Positions 12,496 to 30,199 of a DNA stretch of 64,000 bases are shown here, piece after piece; position 1 is the stretch's first letter, and the number at the start of each line of letters is the position of its first letter. The notes under the pieces were generated by a model. That model was not told the origin of the DNA. It searched no databases and saw nothing but the letters and a program-made list of their open reading frames with translations. Source of the DNA: Shinella yambaruensis (lineage in GTDB: Bacteria > Pseudomonadota > Alphaproteobacteria > Rhizobiales > Rhizobiaceae); NCBI RefSeq assembly GCF_022899355.1, contig NZ_JALJCK010000002.1, positions 496,001 through 560,000 on the forward strand, read 5' to 3'. Made by a program: the position numbers and the translations under genes.

Positions 12496-12505
12496 GAGGC
12501 GGAAC

Positions 12506-12772
12506 ATGCTGCGTATCCATTGCCCCTGCTGCGGCCCGCGCGATCATGACGAGTTCCGCTATGCCGGCGATGCGTCGGTCGTCCGTCCGGCGCATGACGA
12601 TCCGGATTTCGAGGCCTGGTATCGCTACGTCTATGTGCGCGCCAACCCCAAGGGGCTGCATCGCGAATATTGGCAACACGTCCACGGCTGCCGGCAATGG
12701 CTGGTGGTGGAACGCGACACGGCCACGCACACCATTCATTCGGTCCATTTTGCAGGGCAGCAGGCATCATGA
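12506..12772 (+). CDS. soxD: Sarcosine oxidase delta subunit
   Basis: The small protein (88 residues) has zinc-ligand-type cysteines near the N-terminus (IHCPCCGPRDHDEF) and a His/Cys pair later (HVHGCRQW), plus the family segment YVRANPKGLHREYW. It is part of the heterotetrameric oxidase. AGGAGGCGG lies just before the ATG at 12506. The stop overlaps soxA by four bases (ATGA). Confidence 0.95.
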   Translation: MLRIHCPCCGPRDHDEFRYAGDASVVRPAHDDPDFEAWYRYVYVRANPKGLHREYWQHVHGCRQWLVVERDTATHTIHSVHFAGQQAS

Positions 12773-15693
12773 CAGACAACCGCCTTCCCTCCGGCGGCCG
12801 CATAGACCGGTCGCTGCCGGTGGACTTCCGCTTCGACGGTCGCAGCTATGCCGGCTTCAAGGGCGATACGCTCGCCTCGGCGCTCCTGGCGAACGGCGTG
12901 ACGCTCGTTGGCCGCAGCTTCAAGTATCACCGGCCGCGCGGCATTATCTCTGCCGGCATCGAGGAGCCCAATGCCCTGGTAACGCTCGGCGCCGGCGGCC
13001 GGCGCGAGCCCAATGTTCCGGCGACGATGGTCGAACTCTCGCCGGGCCTTACGGCCGAGAGCCAGAACCGCTGGCCGTCGCTCGGCTTCGACCTGCAGGG
13101 CATCAACGGGCTGTTCGCGCCGCTGCTCGCCTCCGGCTTCTACTACAAGACCTTCATGGGGCCGGGCCGCAGGGCATGGATGGTCTACGAGCATTTCATC
13201 CGCAAGGCCGCCGGTCTCGGCATGGCTGCGATGGAGGCGGATCCGGACCGCTATGAGACGCGGCACGACTTTGCCGATGTCGTCGTGGTCGGCGCCGGGC
13301 CGGCGGGGCTTGCAGCGGCGCGGGCTGCCGCGCAGGCGGGTGCGCGCGTTCTGCTGGTCGAGCAGGATTTCGAGCTGGGCGGCCAGATGCTGGCCGAGCC
13401 GCGGGGACAGGACTGGCTTGCCGGCATGCTGGCCGAGCTCGGCTCTATGCCCGGGTTGCGGTTGATGCGGCGCACGACCGCTTTCGGCCTCTATGACGGT
13501 AACACACTGGGGCTGCTCAGCCATGCCGATCCCGGCGCGAAGGCGGCGGCACGCCAGGTCTTCACCCTGCTTCGGGCCGGCGGCATCGTGTTCGCCACCG
13601 GCGCCGTCGAGCGGCCGATGGTCTTTTCGAACAACGACCGGCCGGGCGTCATGCTCGCATCGGCGATCCGCACCTATCTCAATCGCTTCGCGGTGCTGCC
13701 GGGGCGCAAGGTCGTGATCGGCGCAGCGGCGGACAGCGCCTACCGCACGGCCTTCGACCTTGCGGCGAACGGCGCAGAGGTCGTGCTGGCCGACAGCCGT
13801 GCCGAGATCGACCCGCAGCTTCTCGGACAGGCGGTCCGGAGCGGCGTCGAGGTGCATGCCGGGACGCTGATCGTAAAGGCCACAGGCGCGCGCGGCGTGC
13901 GCGCCGTCGAGCTGGAAGGCCGGTCCGGACCTTTCCGGCGTCAATGCGATCTCGTCGGCATGGCCGGCGGCTGGACGCCCGTCCTGCATCTCACCTCGCA
14001 TCTCGGCGTCAAGCCGCAGTACCGGCAGGATATCGACGCTTTCATCCCGGGCGGTCTGCCAACCGGCCAGTTTGCGGCCGGAGCGGTGACCGGTGCGGCA
14101 ACGGCTGCCGAGGCTGTGCGGCAGGGGCATCGGGCCGGCTCTGCCGCAGCCGCCGCCGCGGGATACGATCGGAAGGTGGACGCCGCCGTGCTGCCCGCCT
14201 TCGAGGAATCCGGCCTGCCTCATGCCGTGCAGGCGCTTCCCTTCGGCCGGAAGAAGGCGTTCGTCGATTTCCAGATGGACGTGAGCCTCGACGATATCGC
14301 GCTTGCGCAGCGCGAGGGCTATGAATCCGTCGAGCACCTCAAGCGTTATACGACGCTCGGCATGGGCACCGACCAGGGCAAGACGAGCAACGTCAACGCC
14401 GTCCGCGCCATGGCGGCGCTGCGGGGCACGCCGATGGAGGCGGCCGGCACCACGACGTTTCGCCCGCCCTATGCGCCCGTCGCCGTCGGCGCCATTGCAG
14501 GCCGGGCGAAGGGGCACCACTTCCGCCCCTTCCGGCGGACGCCGATGCACGACTGGCATGTCGCCAACGGCGCGGACATGCTGGAGGTCGGGCTTTGGAT
14601 GCGGCCGTGGTACTTCCGGTCCTTCGGCGCGGATGTCGACGAAGCCTATGTCGCCGAGATGCGGCATGTCCGCTCGGCCGCCGGCCTCATGGACATTTCC
14701 ACGCTGGGCAAGATCGCCGTCGAAGGACCGGATGCCGCGACCTTCCTCGACCGCGTCTATGCGAACGGCTTTGCCAGCCTGAAGGTCGGTCGCGCGCGCT
14801 ACGGCGTCATGCTGCGCGACGACGGGATCGTGCTGGACGACGGCACGACGACACGGATCGCCGAGAACAGCTATTTCATGACCACGTCGACGGCCAAGGC
14901 GGCTGATGTGATGTCCTGGCTGGAGTTCCTGCTCGATGTCGCCTGGCCGGAGCTGCGCGTATCCGTGACGTCTGTAACCGACGAATGGGCGGGCATGTCG
15001 GTCGCGGGGCCGAAGAGCCGCGCCGTGCTGGCCGCGGCTTTCCCGGCAATCGACGTCTCGAACGAGGCGCTGCCGCATATGGGCCTCGTCGAGGGAACCT
15101 TCCGGGGCAGCCGGCTGCGGATCGTCCGCCTCAGCTATTCCGGCGAACGGGCCTACGAAATCTATGTCGGCGCCTCTCAGGGACTTGCCGCCTGGGAACA
15201 CCTGCTGGCGATGGGCAAGGATTCCGATCTGCGGCCCTATGGCGTCGAGGCGCTGGGCGCGCTGCGTATCGAGAAGGGCCATGTCGCCGGGCCGGAGATC
15301 GATGGCCGCACCACGCTCGCCGATCTCGGCATGGCGCGCATGGTGGCGAAACGCTCCGGCTATATCGGCGCGGTCCTCGGGCAGCGGCCGGCATTCCTCG
15401 CGCCTGACCGCCAGCGGGTGGTGGGGCTCGAATGCGCGGAGAGCGGCAAGCGGCTGCGGGGCGGTGCGATCCTCTTCGCGCCCGACGAGGCATGGCAGGG
15501 ACACGGCCGCGGCCGCGTCACGTCCACCACCTTCAGCCCCGATATCGGCAAGTCCATCGGGCTCGGGCTGCTGGCCGCCGACTTTGCCGGCGACGAGGTC
15601 GTGGCCGTCTATCCGATGAAGAACGAGGTGGTCCGCGCGCGGGTCGTTTCGCCGGTCTTCCTCGATCCCATGGGAGAACGCATGCATGGCTGA
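12769..15693 (+). CDS. soxA: Sarcosine oxidase alpha subunit
   Basis: The 974-residue protein is close to the usual 965-1000. In order: an N-terminal 2Fe-2S-type fold (RSFKYHRPRGIISAGIEEPN), a dinucleotide-binding domain (VVVGAGPAGLAAARAAA, about residue 170), and the segment CDLVGMAGGWTPVLHLTSHLG. The Sox-specific YTTLGMGTDQGKTSNVNA and a C-terminal GcvT-like folate-binding half (from about residue 590) follow. The folate domain passes the released methyl as 5,10-methylene-tetrahydrofolate. The start overlaps soxD. An open frame extending upstream to 12670 reads back into soxD and was not used. Confidence 0.95.
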   Translation: MTDNRLPSGGRIDRSLPVDFRFDGRSYAGFKGDTLASALLANGVTLVGRSFKYHRPRGIISAGIEEPNALVTLGAGGRREPNVPATMVELSPGLTAESQNRWPSLGFDLQGINGLFAPLLASGFYYKTFMGPGRRAWMVYEHFIRKAAGLGMAAMEADPDRYETRHDFADVVVVGAGPAGLAAARAAAQAGARVLLVEQDFELGGQMLAEPRGQDWLAGMLAELGSMPGLRLMRRTTAFGLYDGNTLGLLSHADPGAKAAARQVFTLLRAGGIVFATGAVERPMVFSNNDRPGVMLASAIRTYLNRFAVLPGRKVVIGAAADSAYRTAFDLAANGAEVVLADSRAEIDPQLLGQAVRSGVEVHAGTLIVKATGARGVRAVELEGRSGPFRRQCDLVGMAGGWTPVLHLTSHLGVKPQYRQDIDAFIPGGLPTGQFAAGAVTGAATAAEAVRQGHRAGSAAAAAAGYDRKVDAAVLPAFEESGLPHAVQALPFGRKKAFVDFQMDVSLDDIALAQREGYESVEHLKRYTTLGMGTDQGKTSNVNAVRAMAALRGTPMEAAGTTTFRPPYAPVAVGAIAGRAKGHHFRPFRRTPMHDWHVANGADMLEVGLWMRPWYFRSFGADVDEAYVAEMRHVRSAAGLMDISTLGKIAVEGPDAATFLDRVYANGFASLKVGRARYGVMLRDDGIVLDDGTTTRIAENSYFMTTSTAKAADVMSWLEFLLDVAWPELRVSVTSVTDEWAGMSVAGPKSRAVLAAAFPAIDVSNEALPHMGLVEGTFRGSRLRIVRLSYSGERAYEIYVGASQGLAAWEHLLAMGKDSDLRPYGVEALGALRIEKGHVAGPEIDGRTTLADLGMARMVAKRSGYIGAVLGQRPAFLAPDRQRVVGLECAESGKRLRGGAILFAPDEAWQGHGRGRVTSTTFSPDIGKSIGLGLLAADFAGDEVVAVYPMKNEVVRARVVSPVFLDPMGERMHG

Positions 15694-16177
15694 TCCGACA
15701 GCAATCCAAGGGATCACGATCACGCGGTCCCGCTGCCCGCTGGTTCAATGGCAGGCGTGGGGCGATGACGACGATGGTTTTGCCCGTTTCGCCGCGGGAC
15801 GCCTGGGGGCCTCCTTGCCGGCAGAGGTGGGACAGATCGTCAAATCGGATGGTGTGACGGCCGTGAAGATCGCGCCCCGCCGCTTCTGGCTGCTGGCGAG
15901 CGATCCTGACACAGTGCCGCGCGGCCTTCCGGGGACTCTCGGCGCCGAACTGGATCTTGGCGAAGGCCGGGAGCGCATCGACATACGGACACCCGCATTG
16001 CGCGACGTGCTGGCCCGATGCCTCGCCGTCGACTGGGACCGAACGCAGGACCGAGCGGTGTTTGCGCCGCTGCATCGCGTTCCGGTGATGTTTACCCGCG
16101 GATCGACGGAGCACGGGACACTCGTCGTGCCTCGTACTTTCGCACAGAGCATTGCCGATTGGCTGGAAGACTGCTGA
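15686..16177 (+). CDS. soxG: Sarcosine oxidase gamma subunit
   Basis: The protein has 163 residues and overlaps the soxA end by eight bases. SoxG proteins are poorly conserved. The call rests on position (last of soxBDAG), length and family-like segments (VKIAPRRFWLLA, LDLGEGRERIDIRTPALRDVLARCLAVDWD). It completes the heterotetramer. No folate-cycle gene follows here, unlike some sox operons. Confidence 0.88.
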   Translation: MADPTAIQGITITRSRCPLVQWQAWGDDDDGFARFAAGRLGASLPAEVGQIVKSDGVTAVKIAPRRFWLLASDPDTVPRGLPGTLGAELDLGEGRERIDIRTPALRDVLARCLAVDWDRTQDRAVFAPLHRVPVMFTRGSTEHGTLVVPRTFAQSIADWLEDC

Positions 16178-16318: not shown

Positions 16319-16939
16319 ATGAACATGCTCAAGCCGCCTTCGCCGTCTGACAGCAGCCGGGAGGACAGGATCCACTCGAATCCGGTGCGGCTCGGCGCAC
16401 GCCTGAAGCTTGCCCGCCAGACACGCGGGTTGACCCTGAAGGCGCTGGCGCAGGCGGCGGAATGTTCCGAAAGCCTGCTTTCCAAGATCGAGAACGGCAA
16501 GGCCTCGCCCTCGCTGCCCATGCTGCATCGGCTGGTGCGGGCGCTCGATTCCAATATCGGCTGGATGTTCGAGGAGACCGACGGCGAGGAAGGCGTGGTG
16601 TTCCGCGCCGGAACCCGTCCGCTCATCACGCTCGATCCTCTCCGGCGAGGCGAGGGCATCTCGCTCGAACGCGTCATTCCCTATTCGGCAGGCCACCTTC
16701 TCCAGTGCAACATCCACCACATCGATGCCGGCGGCCAGAGCGCCGGGCCGATCCAGCATGTCGGCGAAGAGGTGGGCTATGTGCTGGTCGGGGAGATCGA
16801 GCTGATGATCGACGACAAGACCTTCCGGCTTTCGGCCGGCGACACTTTCGTGTTCAATTCCGAGCTTGCACACTGGTATCGCAATGTCGGGACCGAGCGC
16901 GCCTCCATCTTCTGGGTGAATACGCCGCCAACCTTCTGA
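16319..16939 (+). CDS. XRE-cupin transcriptional regulator
   Basis: The protein has 206 residues. An XRE helix-turn-helix at about 25-80 (TLKALAQAAECSESLLSKIENGKASPS) is joined to a cupin fold at about 130-200 (GEEVGYVLVGEIELMIDDKTFRLSAGDTFVFNS). Such proteins usually regulate neighbouring amine or amino-acid catabolism with a small ligand in the cupin. A 141-bp gap precedes it, holding a short palindrome TGATG-A-CATCA (16188-16198) and nothing else clear. It lies between the sox operon and the next importer. The tandem operator-like sites at 16985-17020 make the importer its likely target. Confidence 0.88.
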   Translation: MNMLKPPSPSDSSREDRIHSNPVRLGARLKLARQTRGLTLKALAQAAECSESLLSKIENGKASPSLPMLHRLVRALDSNIGWMFEETDGEEGVVFRAGTRPLITLDPLRRGEGISLERVIPYSAGHLLQCNIHHIDAGGQSAGPIQHVGEEVGYVLVGEIELMIDDKTFRLSAGDTFVFNSELAHWYRNVGTERASIFWVNTPPTF

Positions 16940-17077: not shown

Positions 17078-18019
17078 ATGGGTCGGACCAAATATCTCCT
17101 CGGCTGCGCAGCAGCCGTTGCCATGACGCTGTCCATGGGCGCCGCAAACGCCTTTGCCGATACGTTCGCGCTCGTCACCATCAACCAACAGGCGCTCTTC
17201 TTCAACCAGATCAATGACGGCGCCAACGCGGCGGCCAAGGAGGCCGGCGCCGAGCTCGTCATCTTCAACGCCAACAACGTGCCCTCTGCCCAGAACGACG
17301 CGATCGAGACCTACATCACCCAGAAGGTCGACGGCATCATTCTGGTCGCCATCGATGTCAACGGCGTGAAGCCCGCCATCACCGCCGCCAAGAATGCCGG
17401 CATTCCCGTCATCGCCATCGACGCGCAGATCCCGGACGGCGACAACATCGCCTTCGTCGGCGTCGACAACACGGCGGCGGGCGGCGAGATCGGCAAGTTC
17501 TTCTCCGACTATGTGAAGAGCGACATGGGCGGCACCGCCAAGGTCGGCGTCGTCGGCGCGCTCAACTCCTTCATCCAGAACCAGCGCCTCGACGGCTTCA
17601 AGGCGGCGGTTGCCGAGGGCGGCCAGAACGTCGAATTCCTCAACACCGTCGACGGCCAGAACGTGCAGGACGTCGCGCTTGCCGCGGCGGAAAACCTGAT
17701 GACCGCCAATCCGGACATGACGGCGCTCTACGCCACCGGCGAACCGGCACTGCTCGGCGCGGTCTCGGCCGTCGCCAGCCAGGGTCGCGGCGACAGCATC
17801 AAGGTCTTTGGCTGGGACCTGACGAAATCCGCCATAGACGGCATCGACCAGGGTTTTGTCACCGCCGTCATCCAGCAGGACCCGGCCGGTGAAGGCAAGG
17901 CCGCCGTCGAGGCGCTCGTCAAGGTGAAGAAGGGCGAGACGATCGAGCCGATCATCAACGTGCCGGTGACGATCGTCACCAAGGAGAACGTCGACCAGTA
18001 TCGCGACATGTTCAAGTAA
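17078..18019 (+). CDS. Ribose-type (RbsB-like) ABC solute-binding protein
   Basis: The protein has 313 residues. A Sec signal ends near NAFA-D (residues 24-28). The mature protein shows the type I periplasmic-binding pattern of sugar binders: TKYLLGC leader, INQQALFFNQINDGANAAAKEAGAEL, KVDGIILVAIDVNG, IPVIAIDAQI and VFGWDL. The ATG at 17078 follows CAAGGGGAACATCAAA. It is the first gene of an operon running to 24800. A perfect 8-bp stem-loop follows before the ATPase. The ligand is unknown. The downstream PfkB kinase and hydrolases suggest a sugar or nucleoside-like compound. Confidence 0.9.
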   Translation: MGRTKYLLGCAAAVAMTLSMGAANAFADTFALVTINQQALFFNQINDGANAAAKEAGAELVIFNANNVPSAQNDAIETYITQKVDGIILVAIDVNGVKPAITAAKNAGIPVIAIDAQIPDGDNIAFVGVDNTAAGGEIGKFFSDYVKSDMGGTAKVGVVGALNSFIQNQRLDGFKAAVAEGGQNVEFLNTVDGQNVQDVALAAAENLMTANPDMTALYATGEPALLGAVSAVASQGRGDSIKVFGWDLTKSAIDGIDQGFVTAVIQQDPAGEGKAAVEALVKVKKGETIEPIINVPVTIVTKENVDQYRDMFK

Positions 18020-18030
18020 GCCGAACCGCC

Positions 18031-18062
18031 GCTGCCCGGTCCACGCAAGCGGGTCGGGCAGC
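18031..18062 (+). other. Intra-operon stem-loop after the binding-protein gene
   Basis: GCTGCCCG (18031-18038) pairs perfectly with CGGGCAGC (18055-18062) around a 16-base loop, in the 70-bp gap between binding protein and ATPase. No U-run follows. It probably stabilises the upstream mRNA. Confidence 0.55.
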
Positions 18063-18089
18063 CGGAACCTCCTCCAGGGGCCATCGAAC

Positions 18090-18890
18090 ATGACCGACAC
18101 TGACGTCAGCCGCGTCCGGATGACCGGCATATCCAAGCGCTATGGCGCTCTGCAATCGCTCGACAACGCCTCGCTCAACCTCATGCCGGGCGAAGTGCTC
18201 GGGCTGGTGGGCGACAACGGCGCGGGAAAATCCACCATCAGCAAGGTGCTCTCGGGCGCCGTCATCCCCGACGCCGGCACGATCGAGATCGACGGCCGGC
18301 CGGTGTCCTTCACTTCGCCCGCCGAGGCGCGCGCCGCGCGCATCGAGATGGTCTACCAGGACCTCGCCCTCTGCGACACGATCGACGTCGCCGGCAACCT
18401 CTTCCTCGGCCGCGAGCCGAAGCGGCGCATCGCCGGCGTGCCGATGCTCGACAAGAAGACGATGCACGAGCGGGCGCGCGACATGCTCTCCAATCTCGGC
18501 ATCGTCATTCCCGATACGCGCATGAAGGTGGAGAACCTTTCCGGCGGCCAGCGCCAGTCGATCGCGATCGGCCGCGCCGCGTCCTTCAATCCCTCCGTTC
18601 TGATCATGGACGAGCCGACGGCCGCCCTTGCGGTCGCCGAGGTAGAGGCCGTGCTCGAACTCATCCGCACTGTCTCGAAGCGCGGGGTCTCCGTCATCCT
18701 CATCACGCACCGGCTGCAGGACCTCTTCCTCGTCTGCGATCGCATCCAGGTGATGTACGAGGGCCGCAACGTCGCCGAGCGGCGCATCGAGGACACCAAT
18801 ATCGAGGACGTCGTCAATCTCATCGTCGGGCGGAAATTCACCGCCCGTTCCGCCGGCCACAACCATCAGGAACGAGGCGCACCCGCATGA
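18090..18890 (+). CDS. Ribose-type ABC importer ATPase, single-domain form
   Basis: The protein has 266 residues. Walker A GDNGAGKST is at residues 41-49, the signature is LSGGQRQSIAIGRA and Walker B is VLIMDEPTAA. It belongs to the sugar importer ATPases, but RbsA-type proteins usually carry two ATPase domains in about 500 residues. This one has only one, so two copies must work together. The stop overlaps the permease start (ATGA). A double-domain counterpart occurs at 48689-50209. Confidence 0.92.
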   Translation: MTDTDVSRVRMTGISKRYGALQSLDNASLNLMPGEVLGLVGDNGAGKSTISKVLSGAVIPDAGTIEIDGRPVSFTSPAEARAARIEMVYQDLALCDTIDVAGNLFLGREPKRRIAGVPMLDKKTMHERARDMLSNLGIVIPDTRMKVENLSGGQRQSIAIGRAASFNPSVLIMDEPTAALAVAEVEAVLELIRTVSKRGVSVILITHRLQDLFLVCDRIQVMYEGRNVAERRIEDTNIEDVVNLIVGRKFTARSAGHNHQERGAPA

Positions 18891-19897
18891 GCTCCGAGCC
18901 CAACGCCTATTCCAGCCATCCGCCGCGCCTGCGGGATGCGACCATCCTCGACAAGGTCGTCGCCAATGGCGGCGTCATGTCGATCGCGCTGTTCTTCATC
19001 GTCTGCTGCCTGTTTTTCGCGGTGACGACGGATGCCTTCCTCACGGCGCCGAACCTCCTGAACATCATCCGCCAGTCCGCGCCGCTCTTGATCGTCGCGG
19101 CCGCCATGACCTTCGTCATCACGACGGGCGGCATCGACCTTTCCGTCGGCTCCGTCCTGGCGCTGACCGCGACGCTCTCCGCAGCCGCCCTGCAGGCCGG
19201 TGTTCCCTGGCCGCTCGCCATCCTGCTGATGCTCGCGCTCGGCGGCGTGGTGGGACTGGTCCAGGGCTATTTCATCGCCTATGAGCGCATTCCCGCCTTC
19301 ATCGTCACGCTGGCCGGCCTTTCCGTCATCCGCGGCTTCGCGCTTCTGATAACCGGCGGCTATTCGATCCCGATCGAGCCGACGAGCCCGTTCGTCACGA
19401 TCGGCCGGGCCTGGGTCCTCGGCATTCCGGCCCCGGCGCTCATCGCCATCGTCGTGCTGATCGTCGCCTACATCGCCTTCAACGAGACCCATTTCGGCCG
19501 CTACGTCACCGGCGTCGGCGCCAATGCGGAGGCCACGCGCCGGGCAGGCGTCAACACGCGGCGCATCATCCTGTGGGTCTACATCCTTTCGGGCACGGCC
19601 TCGGCGGCGGCCGGCGTCATCCTGTCCGCCCGCCTCGGTTCCGGCTCCTCGAATGCGGGGCAGGGGTTCGAGCTCGACGTCATCGCGGCCGTGGTGCTCG
19701 GCGGCACCAGTCTCTTCGGCGGGCGCGGCTCGCTCGTCGGCACGATCCTCGGGGCGCTGACGGTCGCGGTGCTGGCGAACGGCCTCATCCTGTCGCATCT
19801 CTCGCCCTTCTTCACGCCCATCGTCACCGGGTTCATCATCCTGGTCGCGATCTGGCTCAACTTCCGCCTCTTCAAGGACGGGGCGAGGGGGCGCTGA
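18887..19897 (+). CDS. Ribose-type ABC importer permease
   Basis: The 336-residue membrane protein is of the RbsC family: FVITTGGIDLSVGSVLALTA, YVTGVGANAEATRRAGVN, AVVLGGTSLFGGRGSLVGTILGAL. Eight or more hydrophobic segments are visible. It has a four-base overlap with the ATPase and is followed one base later by the PHP gene. It moves the ligand of the binding protein at 17078 across the inner membrane. Confidence 0.93.
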   Translation: MSSEPNAYSSHPPRLRDATILDKVVANGGVMSIALFFIVCCLFFAVTTDAFLTAPNLLNIIRQSAPLLIVAAAMTFVITTGGIDLSVGSVLALTATLSAAALQAGVPWPLAILLMLALGGVVGLVQGYFIAYERIPAFIVTLAGLSVIRGFALLITGGYSIPIEPTSPFVTIGRAWVLGIPAPALIAIVVLIVAYIAFNETHFGRYVTGVGANAEATRRAGVNTRRIILWVYILSGTASAAAGVILSARLGSGSSNAGQGFELDVIAAVVLGGTSLFGGRGSLVGTILGALTVAVLANGLILSHLSPFFTPIVTGFIILVAIWLNFRLFKDGARGR

Positions 19898-19898
19898 C

Positions 19899-20990
19899 AT
19901 GCTCGACCACCTCTTTGCCGAGGAGCCGCGGAAACGCCATCCGATCGGCGTGACGTCCGGCACCGCGATGACCGTGACGGGACCGGTCCCGGTCGAAGAC
20001 CTCGGCGTGACGCTGATGCACGAGCACATCTTCCTCGATGGTGCGCGCAGCTGGATCTGCCCCTGCCATCCCGACGAGAAGGCGATCGCCGAGCAGAAGG
20101 TCAATATCGAGATCGTCGGCGAGCTGCGGATGAACCCCTACATGAACCGGGACAACGTCTCGCTCGACGATGGGGACTTGGCGCTCAGCGAGTTGAAGCG
20201 CTTCCAGGCGCTGGGCGGCTGCACCGTGGTGGAGACGACGAATTTCGGCATCGGCCGCGATGCGGCCGGCCTTGCCCGCATCGCCCGCATGTCGGGGCTC
20301 CGGATCATCATGGGCACGGGCTTCTATCTTGAACATACCCATCCCGACTGGCTGAAGGCGATGGATGTGGAAGAGGTGACGCAGTTCATCGTCGAGGATG
20401 TCGGCGGCGGCGAGAGCCAGCCGGAGATCATGGCGGGTATCATCGGCGAGGTCGGCGTCAGCCGCAACTTCACCACTGAAGAGGAAAAGTCGCTGCGCGC
20501 TTCGGCGCGGGCGGCGCGCATCACCGGCCTGCCGCTCTCCATCCATCTGCCGGGCTGGGAACGCCTCGCCCACCGCGTGCTCGACGTGGTGGAGGAGGAG
20601 GGCGCCGATCCGGCGCACACTGTGCTCTGCCACATGAACCCGAGCCACAGCGATCCCGACTACCAGATGGCGCTCGCAAGGCGCGGCGCCTTCCTGGAGT
20701 ACGACATGATCGGCATGGACTATTACTATGCCGACCAGGACGCCCAGTCGCCGTCCGACGAGGAGAACGCCCGCGCCATCGCGGCCCTTGTCGACAAGGG
20801 TTTCGTCGATCGGCTGCTGCTGTCGCAGGACGTGTTCCTCAAGATCATGCTCACCCGCTATGGCGGCTTCGGCTACGGCTACATCCTCAAGCATTTCCTG
20901 CCGCGCCTGAAGCGGCACGGCGTCGAGCAGGCGGCCATCGACCGCATGCTGATCGACAATCCGAAATCCGTCTTCTCCGCCGCGCACTGA
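19899..20990 (+). CDS. Phosphotriesterase-homology protein (PHP-type amidohydrolase/lactonase)
   Basis: The 363-residue protein is a TIM-barrel metal hydrolase of the PTE family. Binuclear-site residues are visible: HEH at 41/43, Glu184 in IIGEVGVS, His216 in SIHLPG, His245 in CHMNPSH and Asp311 in LSQDVF. The metal bridge is Glu rather than the carboxylated Lys of true phosphotriesterases, as in bacterial PHP. The likely activity is on a lactone or phosphoester of a sugar-like molecule. It is embedded between the permease and the PfkB kinase genes, so it should act on the imported compound. The substrate is unknown. Confidence 0.85.
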   Translation: MLDHLFAEEPRKRHPIGVTSGTAMTVTGPVPVEDLGVTLMHEHIFLDGARSWICPCHPDEKAIAEQKVNIEIVGELRMNPYMNRDNVSLDDGDLALSELKRFQALGGCTVVETTNFGIGRDAAGLARIARMSGLRIIMGTGFYLEHTHPDWLKAMDVEEVTQFIVEDVGGGESQPEIMAGIIGEVGVSRNFTTEEEKSLRASARAARITGLPLSIHLPGWERLAHRVLDVVEEEGADPAHTVLCHMNPSHSDPDYQMALARRGAFLEYDMIGMDYYYADQDAQSPSDEENARAIAALVDKGFVDRLLLSQDVFLKIMLTRYGGFGYGYILKHFLPRLKRHGVEQAAIDRMLIDNPKSVFSAAH

Positions 20991-21018
20991 GCGCCGGCCA
21001 ACCGTTCAAGGAGTTACC

Positions 21019-21783
21019 ATGACCAAGAAGAAAGTGCTGCTGGCCGGCGAATCCTGGGTTTCGACCGCGACCCACATCAAGGGTTTCGACCAGTTCCCGA
21101 CCGTCACCTACCACACCGGCGCTGACGAACTCCTGAAGGCGCTGAAGGACAGCCCCTTCGACGTCACCTTCATGCCGGCGCACGAGGCGCAGAAGGAGTT
21201 TCCGAACACGCTGGAAGGCCTCCAGGCCTATGACGCCATCGTGCTCTCGGATATCGGCGCCAACACGCTGCTGCTGCATCCCGACACCTGGATCCACTCC
21301 CGCCGCACGCCGAACCGCCTGAAGCTGCTGCGCGACTATGTCGCCAAGGGCGGCGCGCTCCTGATGTTCGGCGGCTACTACTCCTTCCAGGGCATCAACG
21401 GCGGCGCGCGTTTCCGCAACACGGCCGTGGAAGAGGTCCTGCCCGTCGCCTGCCTCTCGGTCGACGACCGCGTGGAAGTGCCGGAAGGCTTTACGCCTGT
21501 CGTCTCGGGCGACGCGTCGCACCCGATCCTGTCGGGTATTTCCGGCGAATTCCCCTACCTGCTCGGCTTCAACGAGGTGACGCTGAAGGACGGCGCCAAC
21601 CAGCTGATGACGGTCTCCTCCGAATATGGCTCGCTGCCGCTGCTCGTCACCGGCACCTATGGCGAAGGCCGCACGGTGGTCTGGACGTCGGATGTCGGCC
21701 CGCACTGGCTGCCGCCGGAATTCATCGCCTGGCCCGGCTACAAGACGCTGTTCGAGCAGATGCTCGCCTGGGCGACGGACTGA
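21019..21783 (+). CDS. Glutamine-amidotransferase-like (COG5426-type) protein lacking the catalytic Cys
   Basis: The protein has 254 residues and a flavodoxin-like class I amidotransferase fold, as described for a family of ThuA/COG5426-like proteins. The nucleophile elbow reads LLMFGGYYSFQGINGG, with no Cys where glutaminases have one, so ordinary glutamine hydrolysis is unlikely. Other segments: VLLAGESWVSTATHIKGFDQF and GEGRTVVWTSDVGPHW. AAGGAG precedes the ATG at 21019. It lies inside the catabolic operon and may bind or modify the sugar-like substrate. No defined function. Confidence 0.7.
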   Translation: MTKKKVLLAGESWVSTATHIKGFDQFPTVTYHTGADELLKALKDSPFDVTFMPAHEAQKEFPNTLEGLQAYDAIVLSDIGANTLLLHPDTWIHSRRTPNRLKLLRDYVAKGGALLMFGGYYSFQGINGGARFRNTAVEEVLPVACLSVDDRVEVPEGFTPVVSGDASHPILSGISGEFPYLLGFNEVTLKDGANQLMTVSSEYGSLPLLVTGTYGEGRTVVWTSDVGPHWLPPEFIAWPGYKTLFEQMLAWATD

Positions 21784-21808
21784 GCCGGAGGTTCCAGGAA
21801 ACAGCCCC

Positions 21809-22720
21809 ATGACCATCCATGTCGTCGGCAATGTCTGCGTCGATACGAGCTTTCGCCTGGAGCGGCTGCCGCTGCCCGGTGAAACGCTGAATGCGGCCGC
21901 TGCCGGCGACGGTCCGGGCGGAAAGGGCGCCAACCAGGCGGTGGCCGCGGCCCGTACGAGGGCGGCCGTGGCGCTCTGGGCGCCGGTCGGCCGGGATGCG
22001 GCGAGCGACTGGGTTGAGGGGGCGATCGCCGCCGAGATCCCGGATCTCCGCCTCGTGCATCTCGACCTGCCCTGCGACCGTTCGGTGATCATGATCGACC
22101 GCTCCGGCGAGAATGTCATCATCACCGCCGCGGCCTGCGCGGAGGCCTTCGACCCGCTCGCCATGACCGCCCTCGGCGACACGTGGGCCGCCGGCGACAT
22201 GCTGCTGATGCAGGGGAACCTCCCGACGGCCGCGACGATGGCCTGCCTGACGGCGGCGCGCGCGGCGGGCCTCGTCACGGTGCTCAATCCGAGCCCGCTC
22301 TCCGCCGATCCGCTCGACCTTGCGGCCGTGTCGCTCATCGTCGTCAACCGGCCGGAGGCGGAGGCCCTGACCGGCGAGGCCGATGCCGAGCGCGCAGCGC
22401 GCCGCCTGCTGGCGATGGGTGCAGATAGCGCCATCGTCACGCTCGGCAGCGCGGGTGCCCTGCTTCTTGAGGCAGGGGCTTCGTCCGTCCTTCGTCTCCC
22501 ACCCTCGGATGTGGAGGCCGTCGATGCCAGCGGTGCGGGCGATTGTTTTGCCGGCACGCTTGCCGGCCTGCTGGCGCAGGGGGCACCGCTCCGGGATGCC
22601 GCGCGGCTGGCAACCCGGGCGGCTGCCATCGCCGTCGGCCGTCCCGGCACGCTCGCCTCCTTCCCCACGCCGGCGGAAATCGCCGCCCTCACCAAGACAC
22701 TGAAACTGGAAAACGTGTGA
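21809..22720 (+). CDS. PfkB-family carbohydrate kinase (ribokinase-like)
   Basis: The protein has 303 residues. N-terminal ribokinase pattern: GNVCVDTSFRLERLPLPGE, then GPGGKGANQAV. The C-terminal signature DASGAGDCFAGTLAG holds the catalytic base Asp245. It would phosphorylate the imported sugar, or a sugar released by the neighbouring hydrolases, using ATP in the cytoplasm. The ATG at 21809 was chosen because the kinase fold begins at once; the frame open further upstream overlaps the preceding gene. The exact sugar is not predictable. Confidence 0.9.
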   Translation: MTIHVVGNVCVDTSFRLERLPLPGETLNAAAAGDGPGGKGANQAVAAARTRAAVALWAPVGRDAASDWVEGAIAAEIPDLRLVHLDLPCDRSVIMIDRSGENVIITAAACAEAFDPLAMTALGDTWAAGDMLLMQGNLPTAATMACLTAARAAGLVTVLNPSPLSADPLDLAAVSLIVVNRPEAEALTGEADAERAARRLLAMGADSAIVTLGSAGALLLEAGASSVLRLPPSDVEAVDASGAGDCFAGTLAGLLAQGAPLRDAARLATRAAAIAVGRPGTLASFPTPAEIAALTKTLKLENV

Positions 22721-22725
22721 TCGCC

Positions 22726-23559
22726 ATGAGCAACCCCATCGGACGGCAGGACAAGGATACGCTGAAGACGCTTTTCGGGCGTGACAAGCCGGTGATCGGC
22801 GTGGTGCACCTGCTCCCGCTGCCGGGCGCGCCGCGTTATGACGACGAGGGCGTGGAGGCGATCTACGAGCGCGGCCTTTCGGATGCGCGCGCCTATCTTT
22901 CCGGCGGCTGCGATGCGCTGATCGTCGAGAACCACGGCGACGTGCCGTTCTCGAAGCCGGACCAGATCGGCCACGAGACCTCCGCCCACATGGCCGTCAT
23001 CGCCGACCGCATCCGCCGCGAGCTCGGCCGCCCGATCGGCATCAACGTGCTCGCCAATGCGGCGATCCCGGCGCTGGCCATCGCCTCGGCCTCCTCGGCC
23101 TCGTTCATCCGCGTCAACCAGTGGGCCAATGCCTATGTCGCCAACGAGGGCTTCGTAGAGGGCGAATCCGCCCGCGCCATGCGCTACCGGGCGCAGCTGC
23201 GTGCCAGGGGCATCCGCATCTTCGCCGACGCCCATGTCAAGCACGGCGCGCATGCCATCGTCGCCGACCGGCCGGTCGAGGAGCAGGTCAAGGACCTCGT
23301 CTTCTTCGACGCCGACGTCGTCATCGCTACCGGCCAGCGCACCGGCCATACGGCCGATCTCGGCTATATCCGCATGATCAAGCAGGCCGCCTCGCTGCCG
23401 ACGCTGGTCGGCAGCGGCGTCACCCATGACAATGCCAACGACATCCTTGCCGTCGCCGACGGCGTGATCATCGCCAGTGCCCTCAAATATGACGGCGTCT
23501 GGTGGAACGCGGTCGATCCGGACCGGGTGAAGCGCTTCATCGCAGGCCTCGGCCGATGA
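22726..23559 (+). CDS. BtpA/SgcQ-family TIM-barrel protein
   Basis: The protein has 277 residues. Family features: VIGVVHLLPLPGAPRY near the start, GGCDALIVENHGDVPF, GINVLANAAIPALAIA and TGHTADLGYIRMIKQA with VGSGVTHDNA near the end. The family takes its name from a protein needed for photosystem I in cyanobacteria, but in heterotrophs it clusters with sugar kinases and transporters (SgcQ), which fits here. The reaction is not established. The stop overlaps the next gene (ATGA). The ribosome-binding site is weak. Confidence 0.87.
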   Translation: MSNPIGRQDKDTLKTLFGRDKPVIGVVHLLPLPGAPRYDDEGVEAIYERGLSDARAYLSGGCDALIVENHGDVPFSKPDQIGHETSAHMAVIADRIRRELGRPIGINVLANAAIPALAIASASSASFIRVNQWANAYVANEGFVEGESARAMRYRAQLRARGIRIFADAHVKHGAHAIVADRPVEEQVKDLVFFDADVVIATGQRTGHTADLGYIRMIKQAASLPTLVGSGVTHDNANDILAVADGVIIASALKYDGVWWNAVDPDRVKRFIAGLGR

Positions 23560-24800
23560 GCAGAATGCCGGAGGTCAATCCCGCGCGCCTCCTTACATCC
23601 CTCGCCGATTTCGCGGCCATCGGCGCGACGCCCGCCGGCGGCGTCAACCGGCAGGCCCTGAGTGTCGAAGACCGTGCCGCCCGCCGCTTGCTGGCCGAGC
23701 GCGCGCTCGCCCGCGGCTTCACCGTCTTCCAGGACGAGGCGGCCAATCTTTTCCTCCGCCGCGACGGCCGGGATGCGACGCTGCCGCCGCTCCTCATCGG
23801 CAGCCATCTCGACAGCCAGCCGACCGGAGGCCGCTTCGACGGCGCGCTCGGCACGCTCAGCGCCTTCGAGGTGCTGGAAGCGCTCGCCGATGCGGGCGTC
23901 GAGACCGGCCGCGCCATCGAGGTCGTCGCCTTCACCAACGAGGAGGGAAGCCGCTTCTCGCCGGGCTGCATGGGCTCCATGGCCTTTGCCGGCGCGGGCA
24001 ACCTGTCGGATTGGCGTCGGGCACGGGCGACGGACGGCGCGTTGCTTGCCGACGAACTGGCGGCGACGCTGCAAGCGCTGCCGGAAGCCCGCATGCGGCC
24101 CATCGGGCACGCCGTCTCCGCCTTCGTCGAGCTGCATATCGAGCAAGGTCCCGTCCTCGAACGCGAGGACGTGCCGATCGGCGTGGTCACCGCCGTTCAG
24201 GGCACGAAATGGCTGGAGATCGCCTTTTCCGGCGAGGCGGCCCATGCCGGCACCACGCCGCTGGAGTTCCGCAAGGACCCGATGGGCGCGGCGGCCGCCG
24301 CCATCGCGTGCATCCAGGGCGATATCATGCCGGCCGATCCCGCAGCGCGGCTGACGGTCGGCCGCATCGCCGCCGAGCCGGGCTCCATCAACGTCATCCC
24401 GAGCCGCGTCTCCTTCACCGTCGACATCCGCCATCCGGACGCGGTCGCGCTCGCCGCCATGGAACGGCGTGTGCACGAGGAATGCGAGGCCGCGGGCGCG
24501 CGATGGGACTGCGGAACGGTCATAGAACTGCGCGTCGACATGGCCCCCGGCCGCTTCGACCCTCAGGTGACGGCGGCGATCGAGGAAACGTGCCGGGCGC
24601 TCGCCATCCGCTGCCGGCCGATGGTGTCGGGTGCCTTTCACGATGCGCTCTTCGTGGGCCGGGTCGCCCCGGCGGCGATGATCTTCGTGCCCTGCCGCAA
24701 CGGCATCAGCCACAACGAGGCGGAGTTCGTTTCCGACGCGCATATCATCGCCGGCGCGCAAACCCTGCTGGGCGTCGCGCTTCGTCTTTCGGCCGCCTGA
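23556..24800 (+). CDS. M20-family Zn hydrolase, carbamoyl-amino-acid / allantoate amidohydrolase type
   Basis: The protein has 414 residues. Metal ligands are visible: His84 and Asp86 in GSHLDSQPTGGRFDGALG, Glu-Glu in FTNEEGSRF, His in ELHIEQGP and a C-terminal His in RNGISHNEAEF. This pattern marks the hydantoinase/carbamoylase group (N-carbamoyl-L-amino acid hydrolase, beta-ureidopropionase, allantoate amidohydrolase), not peptidases. It is the last gene of the importer operon. Its stop is three bases from the end of the convergent aminotransferase gene. It suggests that a ureido or carbamoyl group is removed in this pathway. Confidence 0.87.
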   Translation: MSRMPEVNPARLLTSLADFAAIGATPAGGVNRQALSVEDRAARRLLAERALARGFTVFQDEAANLFLRRDGRDATLPPLLIGSHLDSQPTGGRFDGALGTLSAFEVLEALADAGVETGRAIEVVAFTNEEGSRFSPGCMGSMAFAGAGNLSDWRRARATDGALLADELAATLQALPEARMRPIGHAVSAFVELHIEQGPVLEREDVPIGVVTAVQGTKWLEIAFSGEAAHAGTTPLEFRKDPMGAAAAAIACIQGDIMPADPAARLTVGRIAAEPGSINVIPSRVSFTVDIRHPDAVALAAMERRVHEECEAAGARWDCGTVIELRVDMAPGRFDPQVTAAIEETCRALAIRCRPMVSGAFHDALFVGRVAPAAMIFVPCRNGISHNEAEFVSDAHIIAGAQTLLGVALRLSAA

Positions 24801-24803: not shown

Positions 24804-26108
24804 CTACCAGCCGGCGAAATCCGCGAGCAGTGCTTCATCGACCCGGCCCGCCGCGACATCGGCGAGCGCCTGGTCGAGGATCGCGACGCCCTCCTGGGCT
24901 TCCGCCTTCGTCAAGGTCAGCGGCGGCGTGAATTCCAGCACGTTGGAGTTGACGCCGACATAGTAGAGCACGAGGCCGAGCTGGAAAGCGCGGTAGACCG
25001 TCAGCGCCGTCTGCCGCGCGGCCGGTGCGCCATCCGCCACAAGCTCGACGCCGAGGGCGAGGCCCCGGCCGCGCACGTCGCCGATCAGAGGATGGCGGGC
25101 GGCGAGGCGGTCGAGCGCCTCGCGCAGCATGCGTCCTGTCCGTCCCGCATTGGCGACGAGATGGTCACGCTCGATGGTCTGCAGCACGGCGAGCGCCGCG
25201 GCGGCGCAGACCGGATTGCCGTGCACGGTCTGCAGCGAGAAGGCGACGGCGTGGTTCAGGATCGCCTCCGGGCCGACCACCGCCGAGACCGGCAGCCCGC
25301 CGCCGAGGCCCTTGCCGAAGACGACGATGTCGGGCTCGATGTCGCAATGCTCGAAGGCGTTGAAGCGACCGCTGCGGCCGAGGCCGACCTTCACCTCGTC
25401 GGAGACGATGAGGATGCCGTGTGTGCGGCAGAGCGCTTCCACGTGCTTGAAAAACCCGTCCGGCGGCACCAGCATGCCGCCGTCCGACTGGATCGGCTCT
25501 ATGAAGAAGGCGGCGACCTCTTGCGGCGGGATCTCGGTGGCGAAAAGGGTTTCGAGATGGGCGAGGGCGGCGTCCTTCGCGGCTTCGGGGCTGCCGGCGG
25601 CGTAGCTGTTGGGGTAGGGCACGAGCGTCAGGCCCTTCGCCCGCGCGCCCTGCTGGGCGGGATGGCCGGAGACGGCCATGGAGCCGACGGTGCCGCCGTG
25701 ATAGGCGCCGTTGAAGGCGAGGATGCGCGGCCGGCCGGTGGCGGCGACGACCATGCGGGCGACCGTCTCGTTGGCGTCCGAGCCGGAATGGCCGAACCAG
25801 ACGCGGCCGCGGGCGCGTTCCGGCACGAGGGAGAGCAGCTTTTCGGCGAGCAGCACCGAGGGCTCGTTGGCGGTGGAGAGATAGCTTGCACCCGCCTGGT
25901 CGGAAAGCGCGCGGTTCACCGCCTCGCGGAGGGCGGGATGCGAATGGCCGAGGCTCGCCGCGCCCCAGGAGGCGGCGAAATCGAGGAGTTTGCGGCCGTC
26001 GTCGCCGGTGAGGTACGCGCCGCTTCCGCCGACCACCGCCTGCGGAAAGAACCGCAGATGCGCCATCGTCGAGACCGATCGGCTTTCGCGGGCGTAGAGG
26101 CCGGACAT
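24804..26108 (-). CDS. Class III PLP-dependent aminotransferase
   Basis: The 434-residue protein has the fold-type I pattern of omega-amino acid and GABA transaminases: RVWFGHSGSDANETVARM, AYHGGTVGSMAVSG, FIEPIQSDGGM, ILIVSDEVKVGLGRSG and PLP Lys266 in VVFGKGLGGG. It transfers the amino group of an omega- or beta-amino acid to an oxoacid. It is the last gene of the minus-strand Liv operon, 13 bases after an isochorismatase-fold amidase. It may transaminate the amino acid freed by that amidase. Confidence 0.9.
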   Translation of the reverse strand: MSGLYARESRSVSTMAHLRFFPQAVVGGSGAYLTGDDGRKLLDFAASWGAASLGHSHPALREAVNRALSDQAGASYLSTANEPSVLLAEKLLSLVPERARGRVWFGHSGSDANETVARMVVAATGRPRILAFNGAYHGGTVGSMAVSGHPAQQGARAKGLTLVPYPNSYAAGSPEAAKDAALAHLETLFATEIPPQEVAAFFIEPIQSDGGMLVPPDGFFKHVEALCRTHGILIVSDEVKVGLGRSGRFNAFEHCDIEPDIVVFGKGLGGGLPVSAVVGPEAILNHAVAFSLQTVHGNPVCAAAALAVLQTIERDHLVANAGRTGRMLREALDRLAARHPLIGDVRGRGLALGVELVADGAPAARQTALTVYRAFQLGLVLYYVGVNSNVLEFTPPLTLTKAEAQEGVAILDQALADVAAGRVDEALLADFAGW

Positions 26109-26121
26109 GTCGCTCTCCTCG

Positions 26122-26790
26122 TTACTTGAAGAAGGTCAGGACCTCGTCGAGCTGGACGACGTGGCAATAGATCATGTTGATGATCTCCAGCTCCCGCCGG
26201 TGCAGCTCGTCCGTCGCCGCCGCGCCGCAATCGTCGACGACGACCACGCCGAAGCTCTCATCCGCGAGGCTGCGCACGGTGGAGGAGACGCACTGGTCGG
26301 TGAAGATGCCGCAGCAGATGACGTCCTTGATGCCCATATTGTGCAGGATCAGGCGGAGGTTCGTGCCGGTCAGCGCGCTGTCGGTCGTCTTGGTGATGAC
26401 GATCTCGTCGGGACGCGGTTCGAGCTCCGGCACGACCTGGCCTTCGGGCAGGTCCTTCGGCAGAAGCAGGTAGTTGAAGCCGGGTTTCTTCTGGCTGAGC
26501 GAGCGGTCGCGGCCGTCCGGTTTCAGGCAGGCGATGCGGGCGAAGATGACCTCCACCTTGCGCTTGCGGCACTCTTCGATGAGGCGTGCGGTGTTCGGGA
26601 TCACCGTTTTGCGCATACGATCGTAGAAGGGCTGCCAGCGGGCGGTCTCTTCCGGCGTGTCCTTCGGGTCGAGATAGGTGTTCTGGATGTCGATGACGAG
26701 CAGCGCGGTCGTCTGCGGATCGAGCATGATGTCGTCCGGCGCCTCGGCATTGGCGTAGTAGAAGGAACGGTAGGCGGTCTTCCAGCTCAT
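26122..26790 (-). CDS. Isochorismatase-fold cysteine amidase, copy 1
   Basis: The 222-residue protein carries the amidase triad: Asp in LLVIDIQN, Lys in VITKTTDSAL and nucleophile Cys167 in GIFTDQCVSSTVR. Relatives include ureidoacrylate amidohydrolase (RutB), N-carbamoylsarcosine amidase and nicotinamidase. Its start overlaps the permease stop (ATGA). A second member of the fold is encoded upstream in the same operon (31505-32155). Probably it hydrolyses an amide or ureide derived from the importer's cargo. The substrate is unknown. Confidence 0.88.
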   Translation of the reverse strand: MSWKTAYRSFYYANAEAPDDIMLDPQTTALLVIDIQNTYLDPKDTPEETARWQPFYDRMRKTVIPNTARLIEECRKRKVEVIFARIACLKPDGRDRSLSQKKPGFNYLLLPKDLPEGQVVPELEPRPDEIVITKTTDSALTGTNLRLILHNMGIKDVICCGIFTDQCVSSTVRSLADESFGVVVVDDCGAAATDELHRRELEIINMIYCHVVQLDEVLTFFK

Positions 26791-27815
26791 GCAACTGTCT
26801 CCTTCTTGCGGCGGGCGCGGGTGAGGATGTGGCCGATCTCGCGGTTCGGGAAGAGGCCGCCGGGCTTGACGATCATCACGGCGATCATGGCGAGCGCCAG
26901 CACGATCTCGGTGAGGCCGACGACCTGGCCCGCGCCGATGGCGGTGGCGTTCAGCGCGCCCTCGGTGCCGCGCAGGCCCTCATAGGCAAACGTGATGAGG
27001 ATGGTGCCGGCGACGGCACCGGTCACCGTGTTCGCCCCGCCGATCACCAGCATGGTGATGATGAGGAAGGTCTCCTTCAGGTAGAAGGCCTTCGGCGCGA
27101 ACGACGTGATGAAGTGGCCCCAGAGCGCGCCGCCGATGCCGGCGATGAAGGCGGCGAGGATGAAGGCCCGCCAGCGCAGGTGCGGGATATTCGCGCCGAG
27201 CGCGGCGGCGGCGACCTCGTCCTCTCGGGAGGCGCGGAGCAGCTTGCCGGTGCGCGATTCCTTGAAGAGCAGCGCGACGACCACCACGACGGCCGCGACG
27301 ATGGCGGCGATCGGCAGGTCCGTCGTCTTCGGCAGGCCGAAGAGCGTGCGCGGGCCGTTGGTGAAGGCGCTCCAGTTGTTCATGACGGTGTAGAGCACCA
27401 CGAGCAGCGCGAAGGAGGTGATGACGGAGGCCGCATCCGAAAGCCGCATCAGCGGATAGGCGACGACGGCCGCCACGACCGCGGCGAGCACGCCCGCAGC
27501 CAGCATGGCCAGCAGCGGCGAGATCTCCACCACCTTCATGAAGTCGTAGAGGTCCGGCAGCGCCATGCCCTTCATCTGGGCAGGTATGGTCAGAACGGCG
27601 GAGGTGTAGGCGCCGAGGCCCATGAAGCCGATATGGGCGAAGGAGAGCAGGCCCGAATTGCCCATGAAGGTCTGCAGGCCGACGACGAGGACCAGCGAGA
27701 TCAGGAGGTTGGTGGCGATCCGGTCGTAGAGGCGGATGCCGATGAGCTGGCTGCCGATGGCGATGGCGGCGATGACGGCGATGAGGACGAGGGCGGTGAG
27801 ATAGGAATGTTTCAT
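26787..27815 (-). CDS. Branched-chain amino-acid-type ABC permease (LivM-like)
   Basis: The 342-residue membrane protein shows LivM features: GNSGLLSFAHIGFMGLGAYTSA, a RASREDEVAAAALGAN coupling segment and FYLKETFLIITMLVIGGANTVTGAVAGTILI. About ten hydrophobic segments are visible. It pairs with the LivH-like subunit encoded just upstream. Liv-type systems import hydrophobic amino acids but also urea, amides and aromatic compounds; the gene neighbours favour an amide or ureide. Confidence 0.92.
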   Translation of the reverse strand: MKHSYLTALVLIAVIAAIAIGSQLIGIRLYDRIATNLLISLVLVVGLQTFMGNSGLLSFAHIGFMGLGAYTSAVLTIPAQMKGMALPDLYDFMKVVEISPLLAMLAAGVLAAVVAAVVAYPLMRLSDAASVITSFALLVVLYTVMNNWSAFTNGPRTLFGLPKTTDLPIAAIVAAVVVVVALLFKESRTGKLLRASREDEVAAAALGANIPHLRWRAFILAAFIAGIGGALWGHFITSFAPKAFYLKETFLIITMLVIGGANTVTGAVAGTILITFAYEGLRGTEGALNATAIGAGQVVGLTEIVLALAMIAVMIVKPGGLFPNREIGHILTRARRKKETVA

Positions 27816-27827
27816 GGTCTCCGCTCC

Positions 27828-28718: not shown

Positions 28719-28723
28719 CGCAA

Positions 28724-30158: not shown

Positions 30159-30176
30159 GGCTTTTCCGAAGGTGAT

Positions 30177-30199
30177 GGGCCGGCTTTGGCAGCCGGCCC
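30177..30199 (-). other. Intra-operon stem-loop after the Liv binding-protein gene
   Basis: GGGCCGGCT and AGCCGGCCC form a perfect 9-bp stem with a 5-base loop, in the 52-bp gap between the binding-protein stop (30211) and the LivG-like start (30158). No U-run follows on the minus strand. Confidence 0.65.

Follow-up and report, generated by a model that had tools for sequence, protein, structure and literature searches.

A gene set of soil and plant-associated bacteria that seems to import and dismantle a compound of a ribose-like sugar and a nitrogen-rich ureide

Several described systems share parts of an operon that lies in a 64,000-nucleotide stretch of Shinella yambaruensis DNA (NCBI RefSeq assembly GCF_022899355.1, contig NZ_JALJCK010000002.1, positions 496,001 to 560,000 of the forward strand; this whole stretch is the window referred to below). 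The operon encodes a periplasmic binding protein (SBP), the ATPase and permease of an ATP-binding cassette (ABC) importer, a phosphotriesterase-family metal hydrolase (PTE), a GATase1_like protein (GAT), a PfkB-family sugar kinase, a BtpA/SgcQ-family barrel protein and an M20-family amidase, and it seems to allow soil and plant-associated bacteria to take up and degrade a small molecule in which a nitrogen-rich ureide is attached to a ribose-like sugar. The closest described relative is Salmonella STM3547-3550, a locus with no assigned function; its kinase, RikA, acts on ribose, and the authors propose a pathway for an unidentified carbon source (PMC13432705). Both loci contain the trio of PfkB kinase, GAT of family PF07090 (STM3548, 42% identical in a structure match) and PTE (STM3550); however, STM3547-3550 has a DMT-family transporter where the window has an ABC importer, and its four named genes include no BtpA or M20. 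Additionally, the kinase of an STM3547-3550-type locus in our collection (L253; collected loci carry the prefix L) keeps ribokinase residues N14 and E143, which are changed in the window kinase; L253 is called RikA-like from its gene order and N-terminal extension, not from comparison with STM3547 itself.

Other known systems overlap with the window differently. The sgc operon, seen in a Salmonella record, combines a sugar importer with a hydrolase of metallopeptidase fold (M42) and a BtpA-family enzyme, SgcQ, which shares 27-28% identity with the window BtpA, but its importer is of the phosphotransferase-system type, it includes a ribulose-phosphate epimerase-like gene and it lists no PTE, GAT or PfkB. 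The rbs operon likewise has an RbsB-type SBP, an RbsC-type permease and a ribokinase-family kinase, whereas the window counterparts all fall under the ribose-specific NCBIfam cut-offs, the window ATPase is single-domain, and PTE, GAT, BtpA and M20 are extra. With allantoin and ureide catabolism the window shares the amidase family of its M20 protein, and four relatives carry hydantoinase, ureidoglycine aminohydrolase and allantoate amidohydrolase genes after the operon, but M20 is the sole such gene in the window operon; ureide pathways described so far are not known to contain a pentose kinase or a BtpA. Ribosylurea is described as an intermediate of URC uracil catabolism in yeast (Lachancea), so N-ribosyl ureides do exist in nature, although the enzymes of that pathway are yeast enzymes (PMC7530994). 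An initial annotation of the window had called its gene set undescribed, which is correct for the full operon, for which no paper was found in the open-licence full-text literature searched, but not for the PTE-GAT-PfkB trio. PMC13432705 already reports that trio, so the novelty lies in the larger operon and its BtpA link, in the kinase signature and in the ureide genes joined on.

We favor the reading that this is a catabolic operon for a compound in which nitrogen links a ribose-like pentose to a ureide- or hydantoin-like moiety, and we give it a probability of about 0.4. The reading builds on features that the sequence shows: gene content, conservation, the intact metal-ligand residues of PTE, the missing cysteine of GAT, the changed kinase pocket and the ureide genes joined to the operon in relatives. 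Gene content was established from an open reading frame listing with Pfam and NCBIfam profile scans (Table 1). All eight catabolic genes that had been proposed are present on one strand, with 4-bp overlaps between the ATPase and permease genes and between the BtpA and M20 genes, and with intergenic gaps of 1 to 70 bp elsewhere. One assignment had to be replaced: the proposed PHP hydrolase belongs to the phosphotriesterase family and has no PHP polymerase/histidinol-phosphatase domain.

Table 1. Genes of the operon, with window coordinates and the matches that identify them
Gene product	Position	Strand	Matches
HTH-cupin regulator, likely local operon regulator	16319-16939	+	Pfam HTH_31/HTH_3 and Cupin_2
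RbsB-type periplasmic binding protein (SBP)	17078-18019	+	PF13407 9.8e-54; best solved relative 5hsg
ABC ATPase, single nucleotide-binding domain	18090-18890	+	PF00005
ABC permease, ribose/monosaccharide type	18887-19897	+	PF02653; RbsC-type models under cut-off
Phosphotriesterase-family metal hydrolase (PTE)	19899-20990	+	PF02126 224.1 bits; nearest solved 3k2g
GATase1_like protein (GAT)	21019-21783	+	PF07090 369.5 bits; solved relatives STM3548, STM1381
PfkB-family sugar kinase, altered ribokinase pocket	21809-22720	+	PF00294; TIGR02152 209.4 bits
BtpA/SgcQ-family (beta/alpha)8 barrel	22726-23559	+	PF03437 256 bits; TIGR00259 239.4 bits
M20 hydantoinase/carbamoylase-family amidase	23556-24800	+	TIGR01879 404.3 bits, cut-off 204

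The block is conserved well beyond Shinella. Our main set comprises 125 loci with both SBP and PTE, or 110 once identical PTE sequences are removed; some of the stretches are cut by contig ends, so gene absences are upper bounds. Among the 110, GAT is found in 106, PfkB in 105 and BtpA in 101, followed by the HTH-cupin gene (79), the window-type M20 (62), TenA (17) and an ArgE-type M20 (8); any tracked C-N hydrolase (the M20 types, TenA or hydantoinase) occurs in 82. The HTH-cupin gene goes with the unit as its ninth member, and a LacI-type gene replaces it in some relatives. When GAT matches were used as the anchor instead, 60 stretches yielded 27 non-identical loci with SBP and PTE, which contained BtpA in 18, PfkB in 22, the window-type M20 in 12, TenA in 6 and the ArgE-type M20 in 4. 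The initial annotation had staked its reading on BtpA and M20 belonging to the conserved cluster. BtpA usually does so in both samples; M20 does so less regularly and is accessory, with the ArgE-type M20 and TenA recurring as well. Scanning genome contigs with a BtpA alignment gave at least 571 confirmed stretches, and the best 80 of these, a set selected by BtpA and biased toward close relatives, contained PTE and GAT in 79 each, PfkB in 78, ATPase and permease in 77 each, SBP in 75, the HTH-cupin gene in 59 and the window-type M20 in 52.

The complete nine-gene block occurs in the same order in six relatives of a first sample, and a seventh has the part from M20 to PTE before its contig ends; because the block is collinear in other genera, the gene order goes beyond chance. 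The window BtpA and PTE are 100% identical to those on plasmid paSHIWSC3 of Shinella sp. WSC3-e. Plasmid pRL9 of Rhizobium johnstonii 3841 carries LacI, SBP, ATPase, permease, PTE, GAT, BtpA, TenA and ribokinase genes, and Pantoea sp. At-9b has the cluster with an M20 and TenA; Klebsiella pneumoniae and Paracoccus aminophilus are further examples. No blastn match to the cluster DNA of the enterobacterial locus L107 was found in E. coli genomes. BtpA reached an E value of 1e-50 or better in 42 of 397 genomes of an order-level sample, from which 20 stretches were fetched, and a class-level sample of 385 genomes added one further BtpA at 52% identity. Sugar-kinase genes adjoin BtpA in Haloferax and Salipiger too. 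Some copies appear interrupted: the cluster kinase match of K. pneumoniae L161 (2843-4476, in a 5.37 Mb record labelled as a plasmid) is split by an IS1 transposase gene, and PTE lies in several pieces in L182 and L235, reflecting frameshifts or assembly errors. For a pRL90234 transporter mutant, whose tag could not be mapped to the operon, the rhizosphere competitiveness of the transductant was not significantly lower.

What kind of sugar does the kinase recognize? Profile scans and solved structures place the window kinase nearest to ribokinases, yet it falls under the TIGR02152 equivalog cut-off of 299.65 bits. Seven residues, N14, D16, G42, K43, N46, E143 and D255, are ribose contacts of ribokinase. 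Alignment to solved ribokinases indicates that five of these are kept in the window kinase, while N14 is replaced by Cys (C10) and E143 by Asn (N137). Among 99 BtpA-linked kinase sequences, in which some assemblies are counted twice, the Asn is present in 96; it is lacking in L113 and L153, whose kinases are of a different type, and in one Haloferax protein. Across the same sequences D16 is Asp in 96 (with 3 gaps), K43 is Lys in 96, N46 is Asn in 97 and D255 is Asp in all 99. Both N14 and E143 are kept in RikA-like L253 and in Rhodococcus L254 and L255, whose fetched stretches contain no BtpA, and three kinases of other GAT loci (L112, L144, L145) keep E143 but not N14. Four cluster kinases that lack a local BtpA (L132, L137, L138, L142) also have the Asn, and the change therefore tracks the SBP-PTE operon rather than BtpA alone.

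The importer tells a similar story. SBP and permease both lie below the ribose equivalog cut-offs (123.2 vs 337 bits for RbsB and 225.2 vs 398 bits for RbsC), and the 266-residue ATPase covers only about the first half of sugar-importer ATPase models of roughly 500 residues. When SBP is aligned to ribose-binding protein, six of ten ribose-contact positions are kept (F15, F16, D89, R141, D215, Q235), and S9, N13, R90 and N190 are changed. Together, the kinase and SBP changes point to a ribose-like ligand that would be altered at one end.

The nature of the alteration is suggested by what follows the operon in relatives. In L288, L289, L296 and L298 the operon runs past TenA, on the same strand and with short gaps or overlaps, into genes for a hydantoinase/dihydropyrimidinase, a RidA-like protein (PF01042), an (S)-ureidoglycine aminohydrolase and an allantoate-amidohydrolase-type M20. 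The hydantoinases score 505 (L289) and 499 bits (L288) against TIGR02033 (cut-off 393), the ureidoglycine aminohydrolases 309 and 300 bits against TIGR03214 (cut-off 200), and the allantoate amidohydrolase of L288 scores 516 bits against NF006775 (cut-off 479); the genes of L296 and L298 were assigned by similarity to those of L288 and L289, and in L289 and L296 the stretch ends within the M20 gene. Fulvimarina L249 holds a remnant, in which a gene that looks by eye like a transposase is followed by the tail of a ureidoglycine aminohydrolase and the first 110 residues of an allantoate amidohydrolase. Beyond the LacI gene of L288 and L298, and pointing away from it, is a gene for HpxZ (oxalurate catabolism). 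Elsewhere, an amidase-signature gene directly follows BtpA in L113 and L292, and in Salipiger the vicinity of BtpA includes genes annotated as HpxZ, AtzE and allophanate hydrolase. The host's own ureidoglycine aminohydrolase is on another contig, where the only neighbors recognized as cluster genes are general transporter relatives. Directly upstream of the extended operon, L289 (2320-9149) and L296 (2405-9338) carry a separate set of PfkB, BtpA, ATPase, SBP, two permeases and an ArgE-type M20, 27-51% identical to the query proteins; these two genomes thus carry two BtpA sets side by side.

PTE clears the PF02126 cut-off of 22.4 bits, and H41, H43, E184, H216, H245 and D311, the metal ligands (HxH, bridging K/E, H, H, D), are conserved in 108 to 110 of 110 sequences, but the protein is far under the cut-off for the phospho-furanose lactonase model NF045706 (86.8 vs 630 bits). 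Its closest solved relative, 3k2g, is probably Rsp3690 of Rhodobacter. The protein labelled amidotransferase-like is GAT, of family PF07090. Its nucleophile elbow is G118-G119-Y120 (GGY in 28 to 29 of 29 aligned PF07090 sequences), and because no Cys stands there GAT is not a Cys-dependent glutaminase or class I glutamine amidotransferase; in fold it comes close to STM3548 and STM1381, to ThuA-like proteins and to GATase-like domains found in sugar enzymes. BtpA passes both of its family models (cut-offs 30 bits for PF03437 and 153.4 for TIGR00259) and falls under the photosystem I biogenesis equivalog NF045918 (210.9 vs 400 bits). Its AlphaFold model (pLDDT 78.8, weak at 73-75 and 173-179) comes out as a phosphate-binding-type barrel whose nearest folds are ribulose-phosphate epimerase, HisF, tryptophan synthase alpha (TrpA) and thiamin phosphate synthase (ThiE), a general match at the level of the barrel only (TM 0.52 to 0.61). 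Neither BtpA nor PF07090 nor this PTE clade is known to have a settled physiological reaction.

From these parts a route can be proposed in which the SBP and ABC genes would import the intact compound, and the PfkB kinase would phosphorylate the 5-OH of the pentose while C1 still carries the nitrogen part. BtpA, with its phosphosugar-binding type of fold, could then act on the 5-phosphate and release a pentose phosphate to central metabolism. PTE and GAT may open or trim the nitrogen ring, or an ester or lactone on it; in variants with no local GAT, this may fall to hydantoinase, ureidoglycine aminohydrolase and allantoate amidohydrolase instead. The remaining carbamoyl or amide bond would be hydrolyzed by M20, or elsewhere by TenA or the ArgE-type M20, to ammonia and CO2. 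The kinase, BtpA and PTE/GAT steps may follow one another in a different order.

How firmly do the data point to a ureide? The initial annotation had suggested a substrate with a sugar part and a carbamoyl or ureide part, and this is partly borne out: the partly ribose-type pockets of kinase and SBP speak for it, as do the ureide genes that four relatives have joined to the operon and of which a fifth retains pieces, and the fact that three of these five loci come from one genus weakens it. A nucleoside or another pentose with an amide linkage would also fit. That weakness is one of several points that count against a ribosylated ureide. The extension occurs in only 5 of 110 loci and in three lineages, as L289, L296 and L298 are of one genus, L288 is of another family and L249 is from Fulvimarina. 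At one threshold, ureidoglycine aminohydrolase is found in 6 of 208 loci, namely the five extended or remnant loci and L320, which was fetched because of that very gene, and the comparison set consists of other collected loci rather than random ones. None of the four intact extended loci has a GAT within reach, and they may therefore act on a different substrate; in two of these genomes a GAT is found at another locus (L124, L125), next to HTH-cupin, M20 and nitrilase-family genes. The window M20 is below the allantoate amidohydrolase cut-offs (434.5 vs 452 bits for NF006769 and 245.7 vs 597.75 for TIGR03176), and the fold match of BtpA is of the general kind noted above. BtpA is absent locally from 9 of the 27 GAT-anchored loci, and the expectation that genomes without a local copy keep one elsewhere failed in 7 of nine such genomes chosen for this comparison, with a BtpA of at least 50% identity in only 2; these losses, together with the Asn-type kinases of L132, L137, L138 and L142, mean that BtpA is not strictly required. 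Additionally, Halostagnicola has a BtpA with no adjoining sugar kinase.

Plain ribose, or a ribose ester or lactone, is quite unlikely; under this reading PTE would be an esterase, PfkB a ribokinase, and the amide hydrolases neighbors with unrelated or broad roles. The enterobacterial cluster kinase of L107 matches the solved structures 3i3y/3ikh at 417.7 bits, and 3i3y is reportedly a Klebsiella protein with D-ribose bound, so that the match would favor ribose itself over a ureide. Rhodococcus L255 has GAT, LacI and PfkB genes that adjoin a ribose-phosphate pyrophosphokinase gene. For RikA, encoded in the related Salmonella locus, ribose kinase activity is reported both in vivo and in vitro (PMC13432705), and the PTE-family proteins Rsp3690 and Pmi1525 are reported to have esterase activity (PMC5341072), the latter again weighing against the reading that we favor. 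What disfavors ribose is that window-type kinases differ at the two sites, N14 and E143, where L253, L254 and L255 retain the ribokinase residues, that BtpA, GAT, PTE, M20 and TenA would be superfluous for the plain sugar, and that tracked C-N hydrolases accompany most of the loci. Alternatively, the ribose could be carried by a pyrimidine or related ring, e.g. as a modified nucleoside of the dihydro- or aminomethyl-pyrimidine riboside kind, with TenA cutting a ring C-N bond as it does on aminopyrimidines. This possibility, which we consider unlikely, would account for TenA, which adjoins BtpA in the maps of relatives that were read and has Ala-Ala-Glu or Gly-Ala-Glu at a motif where thiaminase II has its Cys. 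It would also fit the added hydantoinase, a dihydropyrimidinase by TIGR02033, the nucleoside-hydrolase-family gene that adjoins GAT in L149, L151 and L152 (PF01156 tested for L149), and the TRZ/ATZ-type amidohydrolase and creatininase-family genes near GAT in L111. However, Pfam and NCBIfam scans found no nucleosidase or phosphorylase in the window operon, TenA is absent from that operon and from 93 of 110 loci, and the ureidoglycine aminohydrolase and allantoate amidohydrolase are enzymes of purine-ureide degradation. Thiamin salvage, with TenA, a deformylase-like M20 and the kinase, was rejected, as the kinase is ribokinase-like, the importer is of the sugar type and the window operon has no TenA.

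An Amadori- or opine-like conjugate, in which a sugar is bound to an amino acid or lactam, as in a deoxyfructosyl-opine, is in our view very unlikely; PfkB would phosphorylate it and BtpA would cleave it, much as fructoselysine kinase and deglycase act as a pair. In its favor, many hosts are plant-associated, M20 amidases act on N-acyl amino acids generally, and the Ti plasmid pTiA47a carries a GAT relative (43% identical) in the neighborhood of hydantoinase/oxoprolinase, SIS-domain and fructoselysine 6-kinase genes. Against it, that gene (L252, 9001-9744) has trbI on one side and a divergent LysR gene on the other and is separated from the opine-like genes; moreover, the fructoselysine 6-kinase model is weak on the window kinase (35.5 bits vs a cut-off of 247), and the operon has no SIS deglycase.

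Two further types of BtpA cluster were seen. The second type (L293, L295, L304, L305, L308, L309, L311, L312, L314, L315) consists of a GntR-like regulator, kinase, BtpA (about 50% identical), a protein of 220-258 residues, for which two representatives gave no Pfam match, often a further protein of about 100 residues, and ABC ATPase, permease and SBP, with not all genes called in every locus. The third (L037, L294, L307, L310, L313) combines a sugar-type ABC importer and a kinase-like gene with a putative amidohydrolase of about 260 residues, judged by eye, immediately before BtpA. In the window itself, a class-III aminotransferase gene and an isochorismatase-family gene lie downstream of the operon in the opposite direction; because they accompany the cluster only in Shinella records (L030/L172, L031/L174, L171), we do not count them in the unit. 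The region to which they belong (24804-32961, opposite strand) encodes a class-III aminotransferase, two isochorismatase-family hydrolases that weakly resemble biuret hydrolase and RutB, and a branched-chain-type ABC importer, and is possibly another amide or ureide catabolic set. Upstream of the operon (7818-16177) are genes for an ectoine-type binding protein (EhuB), two DoeA-like ectoine hydrolase relatives and sarcosine oxidase.

The operon offers a route to the function of the BtpA family. The conserved neighborhood, the joined ureide genes and the solved relatives of SBP (5hsg), kinase (3i3y), PTE (3k2g) and GAT (2gk3/3soz) narrow down the ligand sufficiently for a direct screen. A bolder version of the ribosylated-ureide reading, which we regard as rather doubtful, is that the operon is dedicated to N-ribosylated ureides or hydantoins, e.g. 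oxidized-purine ribosides or ribosylurea-like compounds, and that BtpA is a phosphoribosyl-ureide hydrolase or lyase. If true, this would be the first chemical reaction for the BtpA/SgcQ family, cyanobacterial and archaeal members included, and PF07090 would be a ring-opening enzyme standing in for hydantoinase. A solved pathway would annotate many genes and would reveal one way in which rhizobia and enterobacteria recycle unusual nucleosides or ureides.

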